DNA of 64,000 nt from Oscillospiraceae bacterium (lineage in GTDB: Bacteria > Bacillota > Clostridia > Oscillospirales > Acutalibacteraceae). The stretch lies in contig SVPH01000013.1 in NCBI GenBank assembly GCA_015065965.1, forward strand, positions 1 through 64,000. Direction: 5' to 3'. The number at the start of each line of letters is the position of its first letter. Position 1 is the first letter of the stretch. Positions 17,910 to 36,972 of this stretch are shown here, piece after piece. The position numbers were made by a program, and so were the translations under genes. The notes under the pieces are model-generated. The model was not told the DNA's origin and did not search any database. It saw nothing but the letters and a program-made list of their open reading frames with translations.

Positions 17910-18632
17910 ATGGCTCAGATAATTCTTGTTGCTTCAGGTAAAGGCGGCTCAGGCAAATCATCGTTTGTAACAGGCGTTGGCAGGGCGCTCACTGCGCTGG
18001 GCAAAAAGGTGCTTGTTGTGGATTGCGATATAGGACTGCGCTCTCTTGATATTATGCTTGATGTTACTGAAAAAGTTGTTTTTGACTGGGGCGACCTTCT
18101 GCTTGAAAGGTGCAATGCAGAGCAGGCAGTTATCAAAGGCGATATTGATTTGCTTGCCGCACCCAGAAGTTTCTGCGACGAACTCACTCCGGAAGCCACG
18201 GCAAAACTTTTTAAATCTTTTACAGAAGATTATGACTACATTCTGCTCGATTCCCCTGCAGGAATTGACAGAGGATTTTCACTTGCTGCCTCTGCGGCGG
18301 ACAGAGCAGTTGTTGTTTCAACGCCTGATAATGTATGCGTGCGCAGTTGTTCAAGAGCGTTTGACGAACTGCGAAGGATGGGTAAAGAAGATGTCCGCCT
18401 CGTTATCAACATGTTTGAGATTAAACCTGTATGTAAGAGAAAACTGCTTAACATAGACCAATGTATTGATGAAACCGGTGTGCAACTTCTCGGCGTAGTA
18501 CCGAGGGATTATAACATTTCCTTCAGCACTGTAACGGGCAAACAGCCGCCGTCGGATTCGCCTGCAACCCTTGCTTTTTCACGAATTGCAAGGCGAATTA
18601 CAGGTCAGAGAATTCCGCTTATCTGCGAATAG
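17910..18632 (+). CDS. minD: Septum-site determining ATPase MinD
   Basis: The ORF track begins inside the PBP gene; the ATG at 17910 with AAGGGAGGT gives 240 aa. Deviant Walker A 'GKGGSGKSSF', 'VLVVDCDIGLRSLDIML' and 'DYILLDSPAGIDRGF' identify the MinD subgroup of ParA ATPases. MinC and MinE are not in the window. The usual amphipathic C-terminal tail is short (ARRITGQRIPLICE). Placement after mreBCD matches the Bacillus mreBCD-minCD order, with a PBP where minC would be. Confidence 0.82.
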   Translation: MAQIILVASGKGGSGKSSFVTGVGRALTALGKKVLVVDCDIGLRSLDIMLDVTEKVVFDWGDLLLERCNAEQAVIKGDIDLLAAPRSFCDELTPEATAKLFKSFTEDYDYILLDSPAGIDRGFSLAASAADRAVVVSTPDNVCVRSCSRAFDELRRMGKEDVRLVINMFEIKPVCKRKLLNIDQCIDETGVQLLGVVPRDYNISFSTVTGKQPPSDSPATLAFSRIARRITGQRIPLICE

Positions 18633-18642
18633 GACTGATAAT

Positions 18643-20010
18643 ATGGATAACAGAACAATTGCCGCCGTTGCAACTCCGAATGCGCCGGGCGGAATAGGAA
18701 TCGTCCGCATTTCGGGCGAAGAAGCAATTGAGATTGCAGCAAAAATCTTTAAACCCGTCAGCGGCAAAAACCTTACCGAAAGCAAGGGATACTGCGCCCA
18801 TTTCGGAAATGTATATGATGATAACGAAAAGATTGACGAGGCGGTTTGCCTCGTTTTTCGTGCGCCCAGAAGTTATACGGGCGAAGATGTTGCCGAGATT
18901 TCATGCCACGGCGGTCTTTATGTAACAAAGCGAGTTCTCCGTGCCGCTCTCAATGCGGGCGCAACTCCTGCCGAAGCAGGTGAATTCACAAAACGAGCCT
19001 TCCTCAACGGTAAAATCGACCTTGCCGCAGCCGAAAGTGTTATGGCGCTCATCGGTGCATCGGGCAAGCAGGCTGCCGCAGCCGCTCTCAACACTCTTGA
19101 CGGTAACCTCAGCCGTGAAATTAAAGGCGTTGCACAGTCCATTATCTCAATCTGCGCCTCTCTTGCTGCATGGGTTGACTACCCCGATGAGGATATTGAA
19201 GATACAAGCGCAGGGGATATGCTCCCTGTTTTTGAAAATGCGAAAAAAGAACTTTCAGATATAATCCGCCGCTACGACTGCGGGCAAGCCGTAACCGACG
19301 GCGTTGATGCCGTTATAGTCGGCAGACCAAATGTAGGCAAATCGACCCTCATGAATATGCTCACGGGCTTTGAGCGCTCAATCGTCACCGATATTGCAGG
19401 CACAACCCGTGATGTTGTTGAGGAAAAAATTGTCCTCGGCGAAATCATAATGCGTGTTGCGGATACCGCAGGTATCAGAGAAACCGAGAATGTTGTTGAG
19501 AATATCGGTGTCAGCCTTGCAAAACGCCGCCTTGAACGTGCCGAACTCGTGCTTGCCGTTTTTGACGGCAGCGAACCGTTGACTGCGGATGACCTTGATA
19601 TAATAAACCAGAGCAAAAACAAAAAAGCAATTGCTCTTCTCAATAAATCCGACCTACCTCTTTCGGCAGACAGAAAAATCATTGCCGATTCCTTTACCCA
19701 TGTTGTTGAACTTTCAGCATCAACGGGCGAGGGCAGGGATGACCTTGAAAAGGCGGTTGCCGAAATCTGCTCAACCAACGAGTTTGACCCGAACTCTGCC
19801 TGCCTTACGAGCGAACGGCAGAGGCAGTGCTGCGTAAACGCACTGAGCAGCATCGAAGATGCCATTGCTGCCATCAACGGCGGAGTTACTCTTGATGCGG
19901 TTAACGTCTGCGCTGACTGCGCAATTGATGCTCTTCTTGAACTTACGGGCGAAAAAGCAACCTCTGCCGTTGTTGACGAGGTATTCTCCCGTTTCTGTGT
20001 CGGAAAGTAA
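18643..20010 (+). CDS. mnmE: tRNA modification GTPase MnmE
   Basis: 455 aa from the ATG at 18643 (MDNRTIAAVATPNAPGG), 10 bp after minD with a weak AGGA site. N-terminal folate-binding domain ('GGIGIVRISGE'), helical domain, inserted G domain ('GRPNVGKSTLMN', 'DIAGTTRDVVEE', 'DTAGIRETE', 'NKSD') and the invariant C-terminal 'FCVGK'. With MnmG it installs the 5-carboxymethylaminomethyl group on U34 of certain tRNAs. Confidence 0.96.
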   Translation: MDNRTIAAVATPNAPGGIGIVRISGEEAIEIAAKIFKPVSGKNLTESKGYCAHFGNVYDDNEKIDEAVCLVFRAPRSYTGEDVAEISCHGGLYVTKRVLRAALNAGATPAEAGEFTKRAFLNGKIDLAAAESVMALIGASGKQAAAAALNTLDGNLSREIKGVAQSIISICASLAAWVDYPDEDIEDTSAGDMLPVFENAKKELSDIIRRYDCGQAVTDGVDAVIVGRPNVGKSTLMNMLTGFERSIVTDIAGTTRDVVEEKIVLGEIIMRVADTAGIRETENVVENIGVSLAKRRLERAELVLAVFDGSEPLTADDLDIINQSKNKKAIALLNKSDLPLSADRKIIADSFTHVVELSASTGEGRDDLEKAVAEICSTNEFDPNSACLTSERQRQCCVNALSSIEDAIAAINGGVTLDAVNVCADCAIDALLELTGEKATSAVVDEVFSRFCVGK

Positions 20011-20202
20011 TTTTCTGTTCTTATTTTTCTTTTTTATAATTAAGACGGGCGTTTTTAATTCTTTATCAGCATTATTATGCCGATTTTGGAATACAGACGA
20101 TTGCTTGAATCAAAATGACCTGAGCATCGTTTCAAAAATTTCCATTGGCTGTAAACAAGCGTTTTATTTTTCTCATTTATCAATATTGTTGTGGTGTAAT
20201 TT

Positions 20203-22077
20203 ATGGAATACATTTCTGAAAATTTTGATATTGCCGTTATCGGTGCAGGCCATGCAGGTATAGAAGCAGGGCTTGCCGCTGCACGCCTCGGATGCAAAAC
20301 GGCGGTTTTCACAATCAATCTGGATTGGGTCGGCAACATGCCGTGTAACCCGTCAATCGGCGGCACATCAAAAGGTCACCTTGTGCGTGAAATTGATGCG
20401 CTCGGCGGTGAGATGGGTGTTGCGGCAGACCTCAACACTCTGCAAAACAGAATGCTCAACCTCGGCAAAGGGCCTGCCGTTCACAGCCTGCGTGCGCAGA
20501 TTGACCGCCGCGCATACTGCGATTACATGAAATTTGTCATGGAAAAGCAGGATAACCTCTATCTCCGTCAGGCAGAGATTGTTGATATCCGCAAAGACGG
20601 CAGCGAATGGATTCTCAAAACACGCCTCGACGCTCTCCACAGAGTAAAGGCGGTTATCATTGCAACCGGCACTTTCCTTGCAGGCAAAATATTTATCGGT
20701 GATGTTTCTTATGACAGCGGACCTGACGGCATGTTCCCCTCAGTTGAACTTGCTCGCTCTCTTAAGGAACTCGGAGTAATGACACGCCGCTTCAAAACAG
20801 GCACTCCGCCAAGAATTAACCGCCGAAGTGTTGATATTGAAAATCTCGAGCCGCAATACGGCGATGAAAAAATAACTCACTTTTCATACAGAAAAGATAT
20901 TGAGGTTCGCAACAGCGAACCCTGCTATATAACATATACGGGCGAAGAAACAAAAAAGATTATTCTTGAAAATCTTCACCGTTCTCCCCTTTATTCGGGC
21001 AAAATTGACGGTGTTGGTCCGCGTTACTGCCCCAGTATAGAGGATAAAATCGTGCGTTTCTCCGAAAAAGAGCGCCATCAGATATTTGTTGAGCCCTGCG
21101 GAGCAAACACAGACGAGATGTATCTTCAGGGTCTTTCGTCCTCGCTGCCCGAGGATGTTCAACTTAAAATAGTCCGCAGCATACCCGGTCTTGAGAAAGC
21201 AGAGTTTTTGCGCACGGCATATGCAATTGAATATGACTGCGTTGACCCGCTTTCACTCAGGCAGACACTCGAATTCAAGGATTTTGACGGTCTTTACGGC
21301 GCAGGTCAGTTCAACGGCTCCAGCGGATATGAAGAAGCCGCCGCTCAGGGACTTGTTGCAGGCATGAATGCTGCGCTTAAAGTTCAGGGCAAAGACCCGG
21401 TTATTCTTGACCGCACAACATCATATATCGGCACTCTGATTGACGATTTGGTAACAAAGGGCTGCTCAGATCCTTACAGAATGATGACTTCACGCTCGGA
21501 ATACCGACTTATTTTAAGGCAGGATAATGCTGACCGCCGCCTTACTGAAATCGGCTATAAGGCAGGACTTATCAGTGAGGAAAGATATCAGTCCTTCCTT
21601 AAAAAACTTGAACTTATCGCCGAAGAACGTGAAAGAGTTGCAAATCTTTCAATCCCAAAAACTCCCGAACTTGACGGTATGCTTGTTTCACGTGAAACAT
21701 CTGCGCTTGAAAAGGGTGTTAAAATGATTGAACTTCTGCGCAGACCTCAGATTAACTACGAAGCACTTGCACCTTTTGATAAATCCCGACCCGATTTACC
21801 CGATGAGATTTTTGAACAGGTTGAAATCGACATTAAGTATGAGGGCTATATCAAACGCCAGCAAATGCAGATTAACGAACTGCGCCGCCTTGAAGTAAAA
21901 AGGCTGCCTTCAGACCTCGATTATAACCTTATTACCGGTCTGCGGCTTGAAGCAATTGAAAAACTCAGCAAAATCAGACCCGAAACAGTCGGTCAGGCAT
22001 CAAGAATCTCCGGCGTTTCCCCTGCCGATATCTCGGTTTTACTTATCTATCTTGAGAGGAACGGTATAAATGTTTAA
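20203..22077 (+). CDS. mnmG: tRNA modification FAD enzyme MnmG
   Basis: 624 aa. FAD loop '[20 protein letters not shown]', MnmG signatures '[18 protein letters not shown]' and '[16 protein letters not shown]', C-terminal helical MnmE-binding domain ([14 protein letters not shown]). Partner of MnmE. The 192-bp gap before it has AT-rich sequence only. A perfect parS lies inside this gene, and its end overlaps rsmG by 8 bp. Confidence 0.97.
21684..21699. promoter_or_regulatory. parS: parS centromere site inside mnmG
   Basis: TGTTTCACGTGAAACA, a perfect 16-bp palindrome identical to the Bacillus Spo0J/ParB consensus, encoding part of the 'LVSRETS' stretch of MnmG. Origin-proximal parS sites within gidA/mnmG are known in other bacteria. 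Confidence 0.95.
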
Positions 22078-22780
22078 TACCTCACTTTTAATCTCTGATG
22101 CAGAAAGGCTTGGCATTGCACTTACTGATGAGCAACTCAGCCGCTTTGATGCTCTTTCCGATTTGCTCGTTGAGCAGAATAAAACAATGAACCTCACCGC
22201 CATAACCGATCCGGACGGAATTGCAACAAAACATTTTGCGGACAGTATCTCCGTGCTTTCCGCCGCAGAAATTCCGCAAGGAGCAAGGGTGCTTGACGTA
22301 GGCACCGGTGCAGGTTTCCCCGGCATTCCCCTGCTGATTATGCGCCCCGATATTGACCTTACCATGATTGACAGTACTGCAAAAAAGTTGAAATATGTTG
22401 AAAACACGGTTAACGAACTCGGCCTTATCGCAACAACTCTCCACACAAGGGCTGAGGAAGCAGGTCAGAGCAAGGAATACAGAGAAAAATTTGACTTTGT
22501 TTTTTCAAGAGCAGTTGCCGCACTGAACATTCTTTGCGAATACTGCCTGCCGTTTGTTAAACAAAACGGGCTTTTCATAGCAATGAAAGGCGCAAAAGCA
22601 CAGGAAGAAATTGATGCCGCAAAGGCTGCTATCAAAACTCTCGGCGGCAAAATAATTGCAGAAAAGACATTTTCACTTGCCGACGGCGGCGAAAGAACCC
22701 TTGTTATTATCAAAAAGATATCGCAAATTCCGCCCAAATATCCAAGACCCTCTGCTCAAATCGCTAAAAAACCGCTTTAA
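22070..22780 (+). CDS. rsmG: 16S rRNA m7G527 methyltransferase RsmG
   Basis: 236 aa. SAM loop '[17 protein letters not shown]', '[13 protein letters not shown]', '[14 protein letters not shown]' and '[12 protein letters not shown]' are typical of RsmG (GidB). Start overlaps mnmG by 8 bp. Third gene of the conserved mnmE-mnmG-rsmG-noc block. Confidence 0.95.
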
Positions 22781-22885: not shown

Positions 22886-23716
22886 TTGAAAAACAGCAAA
22901 TATAAAATCGGCGGACAGATAATTCTTGTCCCTCAGGAGGAAATCTACCCCAACCCAAATCAGCCGCGTATGAGGTTTGACTTTGATGAACTTGAAGGTC
23001 TTGCGCAAAGCATTCGACAAAACGGCATAATTCAGCCCATCGCCATAAGAATAAATGAAAAAGGTCAATATGAACTTATTTCGGGCGAACGCAGACTGAG
23101 GGCATCAAGACTTGTCGGCATACCGAGAATTCCGTGTATTATCATGGAAGCGAACGACAGCAAATCGGCACTGTTTGCCCTTATTGAGAACATACAGCGC
23201 ACCGACCTCGGGTTTTTTGAAGAAGCGCAGGCAATCGAAAAACTGCTGACGGACTACGGGATGTCACGCGATGAAGTCTGCAAAAAACTCGGTAAAGCAC
23301 CGCCGACTATATCAAACAAACTCCGACTTCTACGCTTACCCGAAGATGTCAGGCTCAAAATAGTTCAGGAAAATCTTACCGAACGCCACGCAAGGGCACT
23401 GCTAAGGCTTACATCAGTCAGCCAGATTGAAAGAGCGCTTTCAATCATTGCTGAAAAAAGGCTTACAGTTACCGAATCCGAAAAACTGATATCGCAGATT
23501 CTCAGCAGCGACAGCAGAAAGAAACAGCCGCCCATGAAACTGTTTAAAGATGTCAGAATTTTTGTTAACACGCTTAACCATGCGGTTGACACCATGCGCA
23601 GGGCAGGCATTGAAGCCGACTCAGCAAAAAGCGAAACCGATGAATACATCGAATATATTGTGCGCATACCCAAAACAGGCAACTGCGTTATAAAAACGAA
23701 AAAATCATCGGCATAA
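22886..23716 (+). CDS. noc: ParB-family nucleoid occlusion protein
   Basis: 276 aa with a TTG start. ParB N-terminal nuclease-like domain ('IYPNPNQPRMRFD', 'LISGERRLRASRL', 'ENIQRTDLGFFEEA'), HTH ('MSRDEVCKKLGKAPPTISNKLRLLRLP', 'ERHARALLRL'). Two ParB-like genes flank soj here; the one next to rsmG is the usual Noc. Noc and ParB are close paralogues, so which parS-like site it binds cannot be read from sequence. Translation may be limited by the hairpin just upstream. Confidence 0.85.
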   Translation: MKNSKYKIGGQIILVPQEEIYPNPNQPRMRFDFDELEGLAQSIRQNGIIQPIAIRINEKGQYELISGERRLRASRLVGIPRIPCIIMEANDSKSALFALIENIQRTDLGFFEEAQAIEKLLTDYGMSRDEVCKKLGKAPPTISNKLRLLRLPEDVRLKIVQENLTERHARALLRLTSVSQIERALSIIAEKRLTVTESEKLISQILSSDSRKKQPPMKLFKDVRIFVNTLNHAVDTMRRAGIEADSAKSETDEYIEYIVRIPKTGNCVIKTKKSSA

Positions 23717-23779
23717 ATCATTCTTATTTATTTTAACCACTTCTAACTTACCATATCTTTCTCTTTCACACCCACATCC

Positions 23780-23819
23780 ACAGCAAGAGGGGCAGGTTAA
23801 TTCCTGCCCCTCTTGCTGT
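23780..23819. terminator. Bidirectional terminator between noc and soj
   Basis: A 17-bp stem (ACAGCAAGAGGGGCAGG with CCTGCCCCTCTTGCTGT) around a 6-base loop, with CTTTCTCT after it. It separates the mnmE-noc transcript from the soj-spo0J transcript. Confidence 0.8.
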
Positions 23820-23836
23820 CTTTCTCTCCGTCGAAA

Positions 23837-23852
23837 TGTTTCACGTGAAACA
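23837..23852. promoter_or_regulatory. parS: Intergenic parS site upstream of soj
   Basis: A second perfect TGTTTCACGTGAAACA, 104 bp before the soj start. ParB bound here could both load condensin and repress soj-spo0J. Confidence 0.95.
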
Positions 23853-23955
23853 ATTTAAATTTTTATATTTTATCTTTCATTTCTCGGTTATATATGATAT
23901 ACTATAAAAAAAGAGAATTCTTATATTAATTACATTATATAATGGAGAGATTATT

Positions 23956-24723
23956 TTGGGCAAAACAATTGCTATAGTCAATCAGAAAGGCGGAGTCGGC
24001 AAAACAACCTCTGCCGTTAACCTCACTGCTGCACTCGGCAGCAAAGGATATAAGGTTCTGCTTGTTGATATTGACCCTCAGGGAAACTCAACGAGCGGAC
24101 TCGGCGTTAACAAAAGAGGGCTTGAAAAATCCTCTTATAATGTCCTCATCGGCGGCTGCCCTGCAGAACAGGCAATAGTTGAAACACCTTATTCAAATGT
24201 CTTTGTTATGCCGTCGAGCATGGACCTTGCAGGTGCGGAACTTGAACTTGTTGATATTCAGAAAAGAGAATCAAAACTCAAAAACTCCCTTGCCGCAGTA
24301 AAGGACAGATTTGATTTTATTTTTCTTGACTGTCCACCGTCGCTCGGTTTAATTACGCTAAACGGTCTTTGCGCGGCTGATACGCTGATTGTCCCCATTC
24401 AGTGTGAATTCTTTGCTCTTGAAGGACTTTCTCAACTTATCTCAACCGTGCGCACTGTAAAAAGACTCTACAATCCTTACATAGAAATTGAAGGCGTGCT
24501 TCTCACAATGTATAACGGACAACTCAACCTCACCCAGCAGGTTGTTGAGGAAGTCAAGCGTTGCTTCCCAAAAAAAGTTTATTCAACCGTTATCCCCAGA
24601 AATGTCCGTCTATCTGAGGCTCCGAGTTACGGTCAGCCCGTTATGTATTATGACAAATCATCAAAGGGCGCTCACGCTTACAGCGACCTTGCAGACGAAT
24701 TTCTTAAATTAAACGGAAGGTAA
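23956..24723 (+). CDS. soj: Chromosome partitioning ATPase ParA/Soj
   Basis: 255 aa, TTG start with TGGAGAG upstream. Deviant Walker A 'NQKGGVGKTTSAVNLTAAL', 'VLLVDIDPQGNST', 'FIFLDCPPSLGLITLNGL', 'RNVRLSEAPSYGQPV': textbook Soj. Works with Spo0J on parS to move and position the origin; also influences DnaA in Bacillus. 8 bp before spo0J. Confidence 0.96.
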   Translation: MGKTIAIVNQKGGVGKTTSAVNLTAALGSKGYKVLLVDIDPQGNSTSGLGVNKRGLEKSSYNVLIGGCPAEQAIVETPYSNVFVMPSSMDLAGAELELVDIQKRESKLKNSLAAVKDRFDFIFLDCPPSLGLITLNGLCAADTLIVPIQCEFFALEGLSQLISTVRTVKRLYNPYIEIEGVLLTMYNGQLNLTQQVVEEVKRCFPKKVYSTVIPRNVRLSEAPSYGQPVMYYDKSSKGAHAYSDLADEFLKLNGR

Positions 24724-24731
24724 GATGAAAT

Positions 24732-25598
24732 ATGGCACCTAAAAAAAGCGGTCTCGGCAGAGGTCTTGATTCTCTGCTTTTTGATAATTCATTGGAAGAA
24801 ACAAGCGCTTCTCATCCCGTTAAACTCAACCTCATGGAAATTGAGCCTAACAAGGAACAGGCAAGAAAACAGTTTGACAATGATGCTCTTTCTGAACTTG
24901 CGGATTCAATTGCTCAGCACGGCGTTCTTCAGCCCTTGCTTGTCCGCCCTATGATTGGCGGCGGCTATCAACTTGTTGCAGGCGAAAGACGCTGGAGAGC
25001 GAGCCGTATTGCAGGGCTTACACAAGTGCCCGTTGTTATAAAGGAACTCAGCGATACCGAAGCGGCTGTTATTTCCTTGATAGAAAACTTGCAGCGTGAA
25101 GACCTGAACCCTGTTGAAGAAGCATTCGGTTTTGCAAGCCTTATGAAAGATTTCAACTTGACTCAGGATGAGGCAGCGCAAAAGGTAGGCAAATCACGCC
25201 CCGCCGTTGCCAATGCTCTTCGCTTGCTCAAACTTCCCGAAGCAGTTCTTGATATGGTCCGCGAAAATAAACTCTCCGCAGGTCATGCAAGAACACTCGC
25301 CTCTCTTAATGATGAAAAACTGATTATTTCAACAGCAGAGTTCATCATCGCAAAATCTCTCTCTGTAAGGGCAGCAGAAAAACTTGTTAAATCCCTTACA
25401 GCCGAAAAGAAAGAAAAAAAGAAAACTCCGTCAAGAAACACATTCTTTGACGAAGTTGAACTTTCACTCAATAACAGCCTTGGCAGAAAAGCGAAGGTCA
25501 TCACCAAAAACGGCAAAGAAAGCGGCACTCTTGAAATTGCTTTCTATGATAAAGATGACCTTGCAAGGATTGCATCAATACTTTCAGCGCTTGAATAA
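24732..25598 (+). CDS. spo0J: Chromosome partitioning protein ParB/Spo0J
   Basis: 288 aa. 'GLGRGLDSLL' N-terminal ParA-interacting motif, CTP-binding box 'GERRWRASRIAGL', 'ENLQREDLNPVEEA', HTH 'LTQDEAAQKVGKSRPAVANALRLLKLP', 'LSAGHARTLASL', basic linker (TAEKKEKKKTPS) and C-terminal dimer domain. Binds the two parS sites in this window. Confidence 0.96.
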   Translation: MAPKKSGLGRGLDSLLFDNSLEETSASHPVKLNLMEIEPNKEQARKQFDNDALSELADSIAQHGVLQPLLVRPMIGGGYQLVAGERRWRASRIAGLTQVPVVIKELSDTEAAVISLIENLQREDLNPVEEAFGFASLMKDFNLTQDEAAQKVGKSRPAVANALRLLKLPEAVLDMVRENKLSAGHARTLASLNDEKLIISTAEFIIAKSLSVRAAEKLVKSLTAEKKEKKKTPSRNTFFDEVELSLNNSLGRKAKVITKNGKESGTLEIAFYDKDDLARIASILSALE

Positions 25599-31369: not shown

Positions 31370-33001
31370 ATGTATCAGGCACTTTACCGCAAATGGAGAC
31401 CGCAGGATTTTAACGATGTTTACGGTCAACCTCATGTTACAAGAACTCTGCAAAGCCAACTTGAAAGCGGCAGAATTTCTCACGCATATCTTTTTACAGG
31501 TTCAAGAGGTACGGGTAAAACCACCTGTGCAAAGATTCTTTCAAAAGCCGTTAACTGCCTTAATCCCGTTGACGGCAATCCCTGCAACGAATGTGAAATC
31601 TGCAGAGGTATTGATAACGGTTCAATTCTTGATGTTATTGAAATTGACGCTGCCAGCAACAACGGCGTTGATAACATAAGAGATTTGCGTGAGGAAGCAA
31701 ACTTCACTCCTGCAAATGCAAAGTTCAGAGTTTATATTATTGACGAGGTGCACATGCTCTCAATCGGTGCTTTCAATGCACTGCTCAAAACTCTTGAAGA
31801 ACCGCCCTCACATGTTATTTTTATCCTCGCAACAACAGAAATACACAAACTGCCTTCAACTATTCTTTCAAGATGCCAAAGATTTGATTTCAAGCGCATC
31901 GCACCCGAAGATATAACGGCAAGGCTGATGTATGTTGCGGAAAAAGAAAATGTAAACTTAACTTCAAACGCTGCAAGCCTTATCGCAAGAATTGCAGACG
32001 GCGGCATGAGAGATGCTCTCTCGCTGCTTGACCGCTGCTTTGCAATGGGCAGTAATATTGATGAAGAAACTGTCAGTGATGCAGCAGGCATTGCAGGAAC
32101 AATCCATCTGTTTTCATTCTCAGAATATGTAGCAAAAGGCGATTTTACAAGCGCACTTAAACTTGTTTCAAAACTCCACAGTGACTCCTGTGATATTGAC
32201 AGCCTTTGTACTGAACTTACTCTGCATTTCCGCAATCTTATGGTTGCAAAAACCGTTAATGACTGCGAAGGTCTGATTGTCTGTTCAAAAGACGAACTTC
32301 TTAAAATTAAAGAAAGAGCAGGCGAACTCAAACTTTCAAAAATTCTTTCATGTATAGAAATTCTCGGTCAGACCGCTAAAAATATTAAAAATGCGGCAAA
32401 TAAAAAAATTCAACTTGAAGCGGCAGTTATTAAAATGTGCGCTCCGTCTGCTTCATCGGGTGAAGGAATTTCTGCCGAACTTGAAGACAGAATCAGCGCA
32501 ATTGAAGAAAAACTTGCTTCTCTTTCAAGCGGAACTCCGATTATTGCAAAAACGGAACCCATAAAGACATCCGAGCAAAAACAAACACCTGCACCGGTTA
32601 TGCCTGCTCCGCCCGTATCAGCGCCTGAGCCGCCGCCGGAAGAGGAAAAATTACCGCCTCCCCCTGCGCCGGAAACAGATTCGGCAATACCGGACGGACC
32701 TTTTGAAAACTGGCCGGAAGTTCTTGATAAAATCAAAATTTACGATATTCCTCTTTACGGAATTATGGCTAATTCAACCGCATCAATCAAAAACGGCAGA
32801 GTTGTAATTCATTCAGAAAATCCTACTCTTTTTGATTTTATCTGCACAGATACTCATTCAAAAGAACTTGCCAGAGCGGTTTTTGATATTATGGGCAGAA
32901 AAATGAAAATTGCGGTTTCAAACAATGAAAAACCAAAACAGGCAACAAGTCCTTTGGAAAATCTTAAATCAAAAATAAATAATTTTAACAGTAACCAATA
33001 A
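31370..33001 (+). CDS. dnaX: DNA polymerase III subunit gamma/tau
   Basis: 543 aa. 'YRKWRPQDFNDVYGQ', Walker A 'GSRGTGKTTCAKIL', zinc knuckle (CLNPVDGNPCNECEIC), Walker B 'VYIIDEVHML', SRC 'TILSRCQRF'. A Pro-rich linker at about 400-430 leads to a tau-like C-terminal domain. Clamp-loader ATPase. First gene of dnaX-ybaB-recR. Confidence 0.97.
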   Translation: MYQALYRKWRPQDFNDVYGQPHVTRTLQSQLESGRISHAYLFTGSRGTGKTTCAKILSKAVNCLNPVDGNPCNECEICRGIDNGSILDVIEIDAASNNGVDNIRDLREEANFTPANAKFRVYIIDEVHMLSIGAFNALLKTLEEPPSHVIFILATTEIHKLPSTILSRCQRFDFKRIAPEDITARLMYVAEKENVNLTSNAASLIARIADGGMRDALSLLDRCFAMGSNIDEETVSDAAGIAGTIHLFSFSEYVAKGDFTSALKLVSKLHSDSCDIDSLCTELTLHFRNLMVAKTVNDCEGLIVCSKDELLKIKERAGELKLSKILSCIEILGQTAKNIKNAANKKIQLEAAVIKMCAPSASSGEGISAELEDRISAIEEKLASLSSGTPIIAKTEPIKTSEQKQTPAPVMPAPPVSAPEPPPEEEKLPPPPAPETDSAIPDGPFENWPEVLDKIKIYDIPLYGIMANSTASIKNGRVVIHSENPTLFDFICTDTHSKELARAVFDIMGRKMKIAVSNNEKPKQATSPLENLKSKINNFNSNQ

Positions 33002-33014
33002 GGAGATAAATAAT

Positions 33015-33347
33015 ATGAAAGCAAGAATTCCCGGCGCTCCTCAGGGCGGCAATATGATGAAAAAAATTCAGGAAATGCAGGAGAATATGGCTGCTATCCA
33101 GCAGGAAGTTGAAGCAACCGAATTCTCATCATCAGTCGGCGGCGGCGCAGTTGAAGTTATCGTAAACGGTGCTCACGAAGTTACCGCTGTTAACCTTAAA
33201 CCGGAAGTTGTTGACCCCGAAGATATTGAAATGCTTCAGGATCTCATAATCTCAGCCTTTAATGAAAGCATCCGCAAGGCTAACGAAGCAATGGAGCAGG
33301 GAATGGAAAGAGCAAAAGGCGGTCTTTCAATCCCCGGTCTTTTCTGA
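33015..33347 (+). CDS. YbaB/EbfC nucleoid-associated protein
   Basis: 110 aa; '[24 protein letters not shown]' helix, '[33 protein letters not shown]' core. DNA-binding dimer, normal length. Ends at the first base of the recR ATG (TGATG overlap). Confidence 0.95.
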
Positions 33348-33946
33348 TGAGCGGATTTACACCTTCACTTGACAAACTCATTGACCAGTTTGCACGCCTC
33401 CCATCTGTCGGCAGAAAAAGCGCTCAGAGGCTTGCATTCCATGTTCTTTCAATGAGCGATGCAGATGCGCAAAAATTTACCGAAACAATTCTCAACGCAA
33501 GAAGTTCGATAAAACGCTGCGAAATCTGCTGCAACCTTACCGACGGCGAGGTTTGTTCGGTTTGTTCTTCACCATCAAGGGATAAATCAACAATCTGCGT
33601 TGTTGAAGACCCGAGAGATGTTATTGCCATTGAGCGTACACACGAGTATAACGGACTTTATCATGTTCTCCACGGCGTTATTTCACCCATGAATGATATC
33701 AACCCTGAAGATATATGCATAAAAGAACTGCTTTTAAGGCTCGGCGATGATACGGTTAAAGAAATAATCATGGCAACTAACCCTACCGTTGAAGGCGAAG
33801 CAACTTCAATGTATATTTCAAGGCTCATAAAGCCGCTCGGCATTAATGTAAGCCGCCTTGCTTACGGCGTACCCGTTGGCGCAGACCTTGAATATGCGGA
33901 TGAATTTACGCTCATCCGTGCGCTCGAAGGTAGAAATGAACTTTAA
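33347..33946 (+). CDS. recR: Recombination mediator RecR
   Basis: 199 aa. HhH '[17 protein letters not shown]', C4 zinc finger ([16 protein letters not shown]), Toprim '[16 protein letters not shown]' and '[15 protein letters not shown]', ending '[12 protein letters not shown]'. Works with RecF (also in this window) in gap repair. Confidence 0.97.
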
Positions 33947-34241
33947 AAAGTTTTCCACTTATTTATACTTTTCCACTTTCACTTTTTCCACATTTACACA
34001 TTGGTAAAAACTGTGAAGTTGATAACTTCAACTTATCCACAATTCAGCGTTGAATAATTTTTTTAAAAAATCCAGTATTTTCAACGCATTCCGAAGTTTT
34101 ACCATATTTTCACGCACTCTACTATTACTACTATAATAATGATATTATATCCATTCCTATAATAAGAAAAAATTCTTTATTTTGCCGCAAGCGGCACTTA
34201 AATTAAATTTTCCGAGTGGATAAATCCAAGGAGGAAGAAAG
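33947..34241. other. oriC: Candidate oriC: DnaA-box cluster between recR and dnaN
   Basis: Within 91 bp (33951-34041) there are a perfect DnaA box TTATCCACA (34033-34041), TTTTCCACA (33984-33992), two TTTTCCACT (33951, 33969) and an 8/9 match ATTTACACA (33992), all in one orientation. An AT-rich stretch with A/T runs follows (34050-34080), then a TATAAT near 34132 that may start dnaN. The location beside dnaN and within 12 kb of parS fits an origin, but dnaA itself is not here. Confidence 0.6.
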
Positions 34242-35351
34242 ATGAAAATTTTCTGTAACACGGTTGAACTTTCAGAGGCTTGCCAGAATGTTCAGAGAGC
34301 GGCTTCAACCAAAACCGCTATCCCTGCAATTGAAGGTATCCTTATGGTTGCCAAAGAGGGCACTCTTACCCTTACCGGTTATGACCTTGAAATGGGCATA
34401 ACAACTTCAATCCCTGCAAGAATTGAAGAAGAAGGCGAGCTTGTTCTCAATGCCCATATGTTCAGCGAAACTCTCAGAAAACTGCCTGAAAGCGTTGTAA
34501 GCATTTTCAGCGATCAAAGAAATATTGCTGCAATTGCATGCGGTGAGTTTGAGTCTACCCTCATTGGTATTTCTGCTGAGGAATATCCCGACCTTCCCTC
34601 AGTTACGGGCGGATATCCAATAACAATAAATCAGGAACTTCTCAAAGACATGGTAAAAAAGACAATTTTCTCCGTTTCCGTTAAGGACAGCAAAATTGTT
34701 CACACCGGTGTTAAGTTTGAGATTGAAGAAAATCATATAAGACTCATTGCGGTTGACGGCGTACGCCTTGCAATCAGAAACGAAAATATTGATTACAGCG
34801 GCGAAGTTCTTTCATTTGTTGTTCCTGCAAAAACTCTTTCGGAAGTTGTTAAACTTATGAAAGAGGACGATGAAAACGTAACAATCGGCGTCGGCAAAAG
34901 ACATATTATCTTTGAACTCGGCGGTTATCAGATTATTTCTCGTCTGCTTGACGGCGAATTTCTCAACTATAAGGCTGCAATTCCCTCAGCAACAAAAACC
35001 GTTATCAATGTTAATACAAGAAGTTTTATTGAAAGTATAGACAGAACATCTCTTATCATTACAGATAAGATTAAAAGTCCTGTTAAGTGCGTTTTTGAAG
35101 ATAATCTTATCAAGATTTCAAGCATTACTTCTCTCGGCACTGCAAACGATAAAATTTCCGCAAAAATTGAGGGTGAAAGTTGCACAATCGGCTTTAATAA
35201 TAAGTATATGATTGAAGCGCTCAGAGTTTGCGACACTGACGAAGTCAGAATTATGCTCAACGGAGCAGTTGCTCCCATACTTATCGTTCCAAATCAGGGC
35301 GATGAATTCATATTCTTAATTCTTCCCGTGAGGCTGAAAAATGAAGATTAA
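34242..35351 (+). CDS. dnaN: DNA polymerase III beta sliding clamp
   Basis: 369 aa with AAGGAGG. Three-domain clamp: 'AIPAIEGILMVAKEGTLTLTGYDLEMGI', 'SVKDSKIVHTGVKFEI', 'LLDGEFLNYKAAIP', C-terminal 'LILPVRLKNED'. Overlaps the S4 gene by 11 bp. dnaA, the usual upstream neighbour, is replaced by the DnaA-box spacer and recR. Confidence 0.97.
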   Translation: MKIFCNTVELSEACQNVQRAASTKTAIPAIEGILMVAKEGTLTLTGYDLEMGITTSIPARIEEEGELVLNAHMFSETLRKLPESVVSIFSDQRNIAAIACGEFESTLIGISAEEYPDLPSVTGGYPITINQELLKDMVKKTIFSVSVKDSKIVHTGVKFEIEENHIRLIAVDGVRLAIRNENIDYSGEVLSFVVPAKTLSEVVKLMKEDDENVTIGVGKRHIIFELGGYQIISRLLDGEFLNYKAAIPSATKTVINVNTRSFIESIDRTSLIITDKIKSPVKCVFEDNLIKISSITSLGTANDKISAKIEGESCTIGFNNKYMIEALRVCDTDEVRIMLNGAVAPILIVPNQGDEFIFLILPVRLKNED

Positions 35352-35580
35352 AGTTAAAGTTGCGCAAAAACAGCAGGTGTCAAAAAAAATTGATACAGAT
35401 TTTATAAGGCTCGATTCTTTTCTTAAGATGTGTGATGCCGTTCAGACGGGCGGACACGCAAAAATGGTTATTCAGGACGGAGAAGTAAGAGTAAACGGCG
35501 AAGTATGCACTCAGAGAGGTAAAAAACTCAGAAGCGGTGACTGCGCCGAGTTTGAAAATGTAATTTACAGCGTTGAATGA
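35341..35580 (+). CDS. S4-domain RNA-binding protein (YaaA-like)
   Basis: 79 aa; S4 motif 'IRLDSFLKMCDAVQTGGHAKMVIQDGEVRVNGEVCTQRGKKLRSGD'-type core without further domains. Between dnaN and recF as in Bacillus yaaA. Starts inside dnaN, so translation is coupled. Confidence 0.9.
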   Translation: MKIKVKVAQKQQVSKKIDTDFIRLDSFLKMCDAVQTGGHAKMVIQDGEVRVNGEVCTQRGKKLRSGDCAEFENVIYSVE

Positions 35581-35601
35581 TATCTGAAAGGGGCGGAAAA
35601 T

Positions 35602-36696
35602 ATGATAATAAAACATCATTCCGCCAAAAATTTCAGAAATCTTCAGTCTGTTTCCTTTGACCCTCATCCCGAAATGAATGTTATTTACGGTGAAAACGGT
35701 CAGGGTAAAACAAATATAATTGAAAGCATCTGGATTCTGACGGGTTTTTACAGTTTCAGAGCAAGAAAAAATGCCCAACTCATTGAGCAGGGCAAATCAG
35801 AGGCTGAAATTGAAAACATATTTTATTCACACTCGCGTGAACAAAATGCGGTTATGAAAATAAATAAGCGCAAAGAAATTGTTCTCAACGGAGTTAAAGA
35901 AGAATCGCCTAGAGTAATGATGGGCAAGTATTATGCCGTTGTTTTTTCACCGTCAACGCTCGGACTTGTTCAGGATGGGCCCGGTGAAAGGCGGAAGATG
36001 CTTGATGTTGCGCTCAGCCTTGTAAAACCGAATTATGCGGTTATTATGTCACGCTATCTGCGTGTGCTTGACCAGAGGAATGCTCTGCTCAAAAAATTCG
36101 GTGAGCGCAGTTTTGAATACGATTATATTATGCCGTGGGATAATGAACTTGCATCTCTCGGCGCAAAAATAATAAAATATCGCCTTGATTATGTTGAACA
36201 ACTTTCAGCACTTTCAAGTGAAATTTATAAAGGCATAAGTTCGGGCAGAGAAGAGTTTACTTTTCACTATGATTTTTCCGCGGAAAACATCAGCGAAGAA
36301 GAGATAAAAGAAAAACTTATTGCTGATATAGAAAAAACAAGGGAAGCCGATATAAAAAGGCTCTATACAAACGCAGGTCCGCATACCCATGACCTTGTTC
36401 TCAACCTCAACGGCAGGGATGCAAGAACTTTCGGCTCGCAGGGTCAGCAAAGGTCATGCGCGCTTGCAATGAAACTGGGCGAAGCCTCAATTATTGAAAA
36501 AATAACCGGTGAATGCCCTGTTGTTTTGCTTGACGATGTTATGAGTGAACTTGACGAAGGCAGGCAGACATTTATACTTAATTATCTTGATAATTGGCAG
36601 GTATTTATTACTTGTTGTGACCCGTCACAATTGCTTCGCTCAAAAAAGGGCAAGGCGTTTGAAGTTATAAACGGCGAAATAAAAGAAATGGAGTAG
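35602..36696 (+). CDS. recF: DNA replication/repair protein RecF
   Basis: 364 aa SMC-like ATPase: Walker A 'YGENGQGKTNIIESIW', signature 'GSQGQQRSCALAMKLGEA', Walker B 'PVVLLDDVMSELDEGRQ'. Loads RecA at gaps with RecR. 3 bp before remB. Confidence 0.97.
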   Translation: MIIKHHSAKNFRNLQSVSFDPHPEMNVIYGENGQGKTNIIESIWILTGFYSFRARKNAQLIEQGKSEAEIENIFYSHSREQNAVMKINKRKEIVLNGVKEESPRVMMGKYYAVVFSPSTLGLVQDGPGERRKMLDVALSLVKPNYAVIMSRYLRVLDQRNALLKKFGERSFEYDYIMPWDNELASLGAKIIKYRLDYVEQLSALSSEIYKGISSGREEFTFHYDFSAENISEEEIKEKLIADIEKTREADIKRLYTNAGPHTHDLVLNLNGRDARTFGSQGQQRSCALAMKLGEASIIEKITGECPVVLLDDVMSELDEGRQTFILNYLDNWQVFITCCDPSQLLRSKKGKAFEVINGEIKEME

Positions 36697-36699
36697 GCT

Positions 36700-36972
36700 A
36701 TGTATCTTCACCTTGGTATGGATAAAGTTATAACTTTTGATGAAATCATCGGCATTTTTGACCTTGATACATCAACTGTTTCAAAAAGCACAAGAAATTA
36801 CCTTGCCATGGCTGAGAAGGCAGGAATAGTCGAAAATATCTGCTATGATTTGCCTAAATCATTTATAGTATGCCGCGATAAAAACGGAAAAGATAAGGTT
36901 TATATTTCGCAGATTTCATCCGCAACTCTGCTGAAAAGAACAAACTTTGTGGACAGCCTTAATAATGTATAA
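36700..36972 (+). CDS. remB: Extracellular matrix regulator RemB (DUF370, YaaB)
   Basis: 90 aa; 'MYLHLGMDKVITFDEIIGIFDLD' and C-terminal 'VYISQISSATLLKR' define the RemA/RemB family. Same position after recF as Bacillus yaaB; gyrB, which follows there, is missing here and replaced by a terminator and a small HTH gene. Confidence 0.88.
   Translation: MYLHLGMDKVITFDEIIGIFDLDTSTVSKSTRNYLAMAEKAGIVENICYDLPKSFIVCRDKNGKDKVYISQISSATLLKRTNFVDSLNNV

Follow-up and report, generated by a model that had tools for sequence, protein, structure and literature searches.

A putative chromosomal origin of replication at dnaN, separated from dnaA, in an Oscillospirales genus

Gene order and DnaA boxes of the recR-dnaN gap

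The DNA analyzed here (the window, 64 kb) comes from an uncultured gut Oscillospiraceae bacterium, a relative of Clostridium, and carries, all on the forward strand, the genes dnaX-ebfC-recR, a 295-bp intergenic gap (33947-34241), dnaN, an S4-domain gene, recF and remB. The dnaX and ebfC genes are located at 31370-33347, upstream of recR (33347-33946), which harbors the Pfam RecR domains and, as the last gene of its group, is the upstream neighbor of the putative origin. Downstream of the gap lies dnaN (34242-35351), encoding the sliding clamp with three beta-clamp domains (Pfam), followed at 35341-36972 by the S4-domain gene, recF and remB, the customary right-arm neighbors of dnaN. The Pfam assignments agree with a preliminary description of this DNA, according to which the gene upstream of dnaN is recR and not dnaA; recR is also located upstream of dnaN in all genus-level relatives.

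Four forward DnaA boxes, with a spacing conserved in relatives, were identified in the gap: box A at 33951-33959 (TTTTCCACT), box B at 33969-33977 (TTTTCCACT, A + 18), box C at 33984-33992 (TTTTCCACA, A + 33) and the perfect box D at 34033-34041 (TTATCCACA, A + 82). The preliminary description had counted one perfect box and four near-matches, all in one direction. The perfect box at 34033 and the near-matches at 33951, 33969 and 33984 were recovered, while the fourth near-match was probably ATTTACACA at 33992, which has one mismatch to TTWTNCACA and is not conserved in relatives. The common direction applies to the upstream group but not to the whole gap, as a reverse near-match (TTATCCACT) is located on the minus strand at 34215-34223, near the ribosome-binding site of dnaN, and is present in several relatives. 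A weak reverse box (TTATCAACT, minus strand, 34017-34025) is partly conserved. Forward TTWTCCACN sites occur four times in the 64-kb window, every one of them inside the gap, which also contains one reverse site. Four boxes on one strand were obtained in 0/20,000 dinucleotide shuffles of the gap, so the intergenic DnaA-box cluster, a hallmark of oriC, is beyond chance. A three-site row similar to TTATNCACA (TTATRCACA-like) at 1282-1350 of the window was rejected as a false box cluster, being a coding repeat (NPYAQ).

DnaA-trio and predicted unwinding element

The gap also bears a DnaA-trio run on the forward strand at 34119-34136 (CTACTATTACTACTATAA; 3'-GAT-5' on the other strand), which was absent from the preliminary description and is the sole such run in the window. 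It reaches the three or more trios expected of a basal unwinding system (BUS), and an equally good run appeared in 0/20,000 dinucleotide shuffles of the gap. With up to one mismatch allowed, the trio 15-mer has a single occurrence in the 2.33-Mb own genome, in the recR-dnaN gap. Alignment and a genus pattern scan revealed two abutting degenerate trio-proximal boxes upstream of it on the forward strand (TTTTACCAT and ATTTTCACG, 34097-34114), with two to three mismatches to TTWTNCACA and a core (GTTATACCATATTTTCACG) that is near-invariant in relatives. Published BUS searches used a spacer of 16 bp and a box with at most two mismatches to TTATCCACA within 16 bp of the trio (PMC8287927). Here, ATTTTCACG is located 4 bp from the trio and has four mismatches to TTATCCACA and two to TTWTNCACA; the nearest good box lies 78 bp away and the strong boxes 78-168 bp upstream of the trio. 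A duplex-unwinding element is predicted by stability computation at 34119-34182, adjoining the boxes. The AT-rich stretch reported earlier after the boxes is thereby confirmed: within the gap, stability is lowest in the 60-mer beginning at 34123, which ranks in the least stable 0.03% of the window.

DnaA boxes can regulate promoters. The boxes could accordingly be read as a DnaA-responsive promoter or operator of dnaN-recF, or as a DnaA-titration site, with the origin elsewhere, and the reverse box near the dnaN ribosome-binding site would fit such a role. We consider this very improbable, since it leaves unexplained the trio and the unstable segment, as well as the skew minimum at dnaN and the partition locus described below.

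Conservation among relatives

All genomes compared are draft assemblies. The box offsets 0/+18/+33/+82 are kept in about 18 related species of the window's subclade, with varying recR distance and flanks, and the block GTTATACCATATTTTCACGCCCCCTACTATTACTACTATAA shows hardly any variation among the recR-dnaN gaps of congeners, although the sequences on either side of it have diverged. A degenerate pattern of the trio core gave 25 matches in 45 genus genomes, once per matching genome and always upstream of dnaN by at most about 160 bp; the reversed pattern, used as a control, gave 0 matches across the same 45 genomes. In canonical relatives, the trio element with two adjoining boxes is located between dnaA and dnaN in most gaps examined. 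Outside the genus, seven split genera (G039, G049, G067, G081, G100, G105 and G113) have the element, sometimes weaker, upstream of dnaN; the upstream context is recR in G039, G049, G067, G081 and G113, and parA-parB-serS in G105. In three genomes with long DnaN branches (G001, G026 and G033), no such element accompanies dnaN, and these genomes were left out.

Location of dnaA

The dnaA gene of the same genome was found on another contig (C12), with ftsY on one side and the divergent rpmH-rnpA-yidD-yidC-jag on the other, and dnaA and dnaN are on different contigs in 39/39 genus genomes having both, which bears out the split proposed from the window. In G135, the contig ends put the distance between dnaA and dnaN at no less than about 296 kb. 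Across the family, dnaA and dnaN are separated by about 1.2 kb in roughly 100 of the 120 genomes sampled. Given that all genomes are drafts, some with up to 5% contamination, the split might be taken for an artefact of metagenome assembly or binning; however, dozens of genomes assembled separately, and other genera as well, show the recR-dnaN junction, and dnaA-ftsY recurs as an alternative neighbor pairing, so that an artefact is hardly credible.

No stronger box cluster was detected at dnaA. Sites matching TTWTNCACA with at most one mismatch number 4 in the 300 bp upstream of the own dnaA versus 6 in the recR-dnaN gap, and the genus means by the same count are 2.1 and 5.4, respectively. Neither in the genus nor in relatives with adjacent dnaA and dnaN does the region upstream of dnaA contain a trio, and it has at most a few boxes. 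The bipartite Firmicutes arrangement (rpmH-dnaA-dnaN), with oriC1 and oriC2 flanking dnaA, is lacking. An origin that went with dnaA (the rpmH-dnaA gap, oriC1 half), leaving a relic at dnaN, could draw on the tandem TTATACACA and TTATCCACC upstream of the own dnaA. Yet the absence of a trio, the few boxes in relatives and the strong conservation of the dnaN gap, along with the skew on three dnaA contigs, which has no comparable step (see below), make it exceedingly improbable.

GC skew

The skew sample comprised four dnaN contigs and three dnaA contigs, all of relatives; the window's own 64 kb are too short for a clear skew, with a local minimum near 35 kb and a lower value at 55 kb. A cumulative GC-skew minimum at the locus, set beforehand as a check, was found on three of the four long dnaN contigs, at 1.1 kb from the dnaN start in G143 (350-kb contig), 1.1 kb in G134 (300 kb) and 6 kb in G135 (240 kb). 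Only 1.6% (G143), 0.7% (G134) and 3.2% (G135) of positions have a larger skew step than dnaN. On the dnaA contigs of G135, G131 and G133, the steps at dnaA are +0.015, -0.026 and -0.001, none of them comparable to that at dnaN.

G142 disagrees, with a minimum 75 kb from dnaN (contig G142:C29, minimum at 123 kb versus dnaN, trio and parB at 198-208 kb). A recent rearrangement, e.g., inversion of a left-arm segment, or a misassembly or bin error is a possible cause. On the same contig (L223-L235), the skew is strongly positive between the minimum and dnaN. The 109-kb dnaN contig of G133 was left out of the dnaN count; the three dnaA contigs include that of G133. The GC content of the dnaN contig (G133:C25, L191-L195) is near 0.50, versus about 0.44 on the dnaA contig (G133:C27). 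Mis-binning of the dnaN contig is possible.

Partition locus and left-arm neighbors

A noc, parA and parB cluster is located on the forward strand at 22886-25598 (Pfam ParB_N, HTH_ParB and AAA_31), 9-11 kb from the putative origin. Perfect parS sites (TGTTTCACGTGAAACA) are present at 21684-21699 and 23837-23852, which places a parABS locus 9-12 kb from the gap, as expected near an oriC. ParB genes are situated 7-19 kb from dnaN in 9/10 congeners; the origin region is rearranged repeatedly while the partition genes stay within 20 kb. The mnmE, mnmG and rsmG genes are customary left-arm neighbors of the origin; here they lie on the forward strand at 18571-22780, in reversed orientation and pointing at the putative origin. 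In a deeper congener (L036, 14841-19000), parB-parA-rsmG-mnmG is found to the right of dnaN, reversed again.

Interpretation of the gap as oriC

The preliminary description had suggested that the origin was perhaps kept at dnaN. The boxes, the trio, the AT-rich segment, their conservation and the nearby partition locus, together with the GC-skew switch in relatives, point in the same direction. On this sequence evidence, the recR-dnaN gap is very probably a functional chromosomal origin (oriC), corresponding to the oriC2/incC half of an ancestral rpmH-dnaA-[oriC2]-dnaN arrangement that was left at dnaN when dnaA moved. Against this reading stand the left-arm genes pointing towards the origin, contrary to the usual leading-strand preference, the degenerate boxes adjoining the trio, the skew of G142 and the shortness of the window for a skew of its own. 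The orientation of the left-arm genes can be attributed to inversion of the left-arm block. Taken alone, gene orientation, with genes converging on about 37 kb, would speak against an origin; this argument was rejected because both the skew and the partition markers point to dnaN and the reversed block accounts for the directions of the genes.

If DnaA acts as in B. subtilis and C. difficile (PMC8287927, PMC7561715), binding, unwinding and initiation would all take place at the gap. DnaA produced from its distant locus would bind the tandem boxes A-D and the two degenerate trio-proximal boxes and extend as an ATP filament onto the single-stranded DnaA-trios; the AT-rich segment downstream (about 34119-34182) would then melt, and the helicase would be loaded there. 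The shift to a monopartite origin may have preceded the departure of dnaA, because oriC1 has no nearby counterpart here and related genera with dnaA still in place already have few boxes in oriC1.

Evolution of the split

In the canonical locus L037, noc, rsmG, mnmG, mnmE, jag, yidC and rnpA run leftwards, followed by dnaA and dnaN rightwards, whereas in the window mnmE-mnmG-rsmG-noc-parA-parB run rightwards towards dnaN. In G105 (L268), the order rsmG-noc-parA-parB-serS-[trio]-dnaN leads rightwards directly up to dnaN and resembles what an inversion with one of its breakpoints between dnaA and oriC2 would directly produce. The separation most likely began when the left-arm block (dnaA-rpmH...parB) was inverted, one breakpoint falling between dnaA and oriC2; in further shuffling afterwards, dnaX-ebfC-recR would have been placed in between and dnaA carried away with rpmH-jag. 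Parsimony on a weakly supported DnaN tree gives 5-6 changes for the dnaA/dnaN split; the recR-dnaN arrangement may have a single origin.

In a sister clade within the genus (e.g., G120, G123, G133, G151, G157 and G161), the recR-dnaN gap is almost devoid of TTWTCCAC. The sister-clade gaps considered were L024, L025, L029-L034, L036, L133, L134, L140 and L143, and the DnaA loci L274-L285. In 13 sister-clade gaps, TTCAC occurs 63 times forward versus 8 times reverse (shuffle mean 5.1, maximum 12), with repeated offsets from the core of -140, -130, -120, -111 and -92, some of which equal old box positions. The DnaA helix-turn-helix reads LTQQ..RDRT[AT]IHYA in the sister clade versus LTQK..RDRTTILYS in the window's clade, and a third clade has RDHTTV. 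In Epsilonproteobacteria, TTCAC-core boxes occur with a changed DnaA DNA-binding motif (PMC6052347). There is roughly an even chance that, after dnaA left, the sister clade recoded its origin from TTWTCCAC to forward TTCAC-core boxes, with the DnaA helix-turn-helix changing along, as a convergent and recent equivalent of the Epsilonproteobacteria boxes at a dnaA-free, effectively monopartite Firmicutes origin. Coevolution of boxes and DnaA in this clade is plausible from the sequences compared, which provide one phylogenetic contrast. If true, the DnaA box code would have changed within one genus.

Comparison with known origins and significance

One close parallel is oriC2 of the bipartite origin of Clostridioides difficile, which likewise has a box cluster, a nearly identical trio (CTACTACTATTACTACTA) and an AT-rich segment after it, just upstream of dnaN (PMC7561715). 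In that species, DnaA-dependent unwinding was mapped to the dnaA-dnaN gap, where the same motif is found as 5'-CACCTACTACTATTACTACTATGA-3' (PMC7561715). However, C. difficile keeps rpmH-dnaA-dnaN together, while in the present genome a different contig carries dnaA and the oriC1 position; moreover, melting of C. difficile oriC2 in vitro needed oriC1 too (PMC7561715), which is box-poor here. The BUS of Bacillus subtilis (PMC8287927, PMC6669920) shares the same order of boxes, short GC-containing spacer, trio and AT-rich DNA, but in the present gap the trio-proximal boxes are degenerate, the strong boxes are 78-168 bp upstream and dnaA is absent. The oriC of Synechococcus elongatus, as far as it is cited in PMC7198777, is also located near dnaN at a GC-skew switch; that is a cyanobacterium and an independent event, whereas the present case belongs to Clostridia (Oscillospirales), a group in which conservation of the rpmH-dnaA-dnaN context had been assumed. 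Our search of the available literature found no report of a dnaA/dnaN split in Ruminococcaceae, and one may still have been published.

Origins of Firmicutes are usually located via the dnaA-dnaN gene pair. Followed in this lineage, the rule would mislead annotators, as dnaN is the gene marked by trio, skew and parS. The lineage also offers a natural experiment on whether a bipartite Firmicutes origin can function with its unwinding half alone, lacking the dnaA-proximal half, and on what becomes of DnaA gene dosage once dnaA is no longer at the origin.
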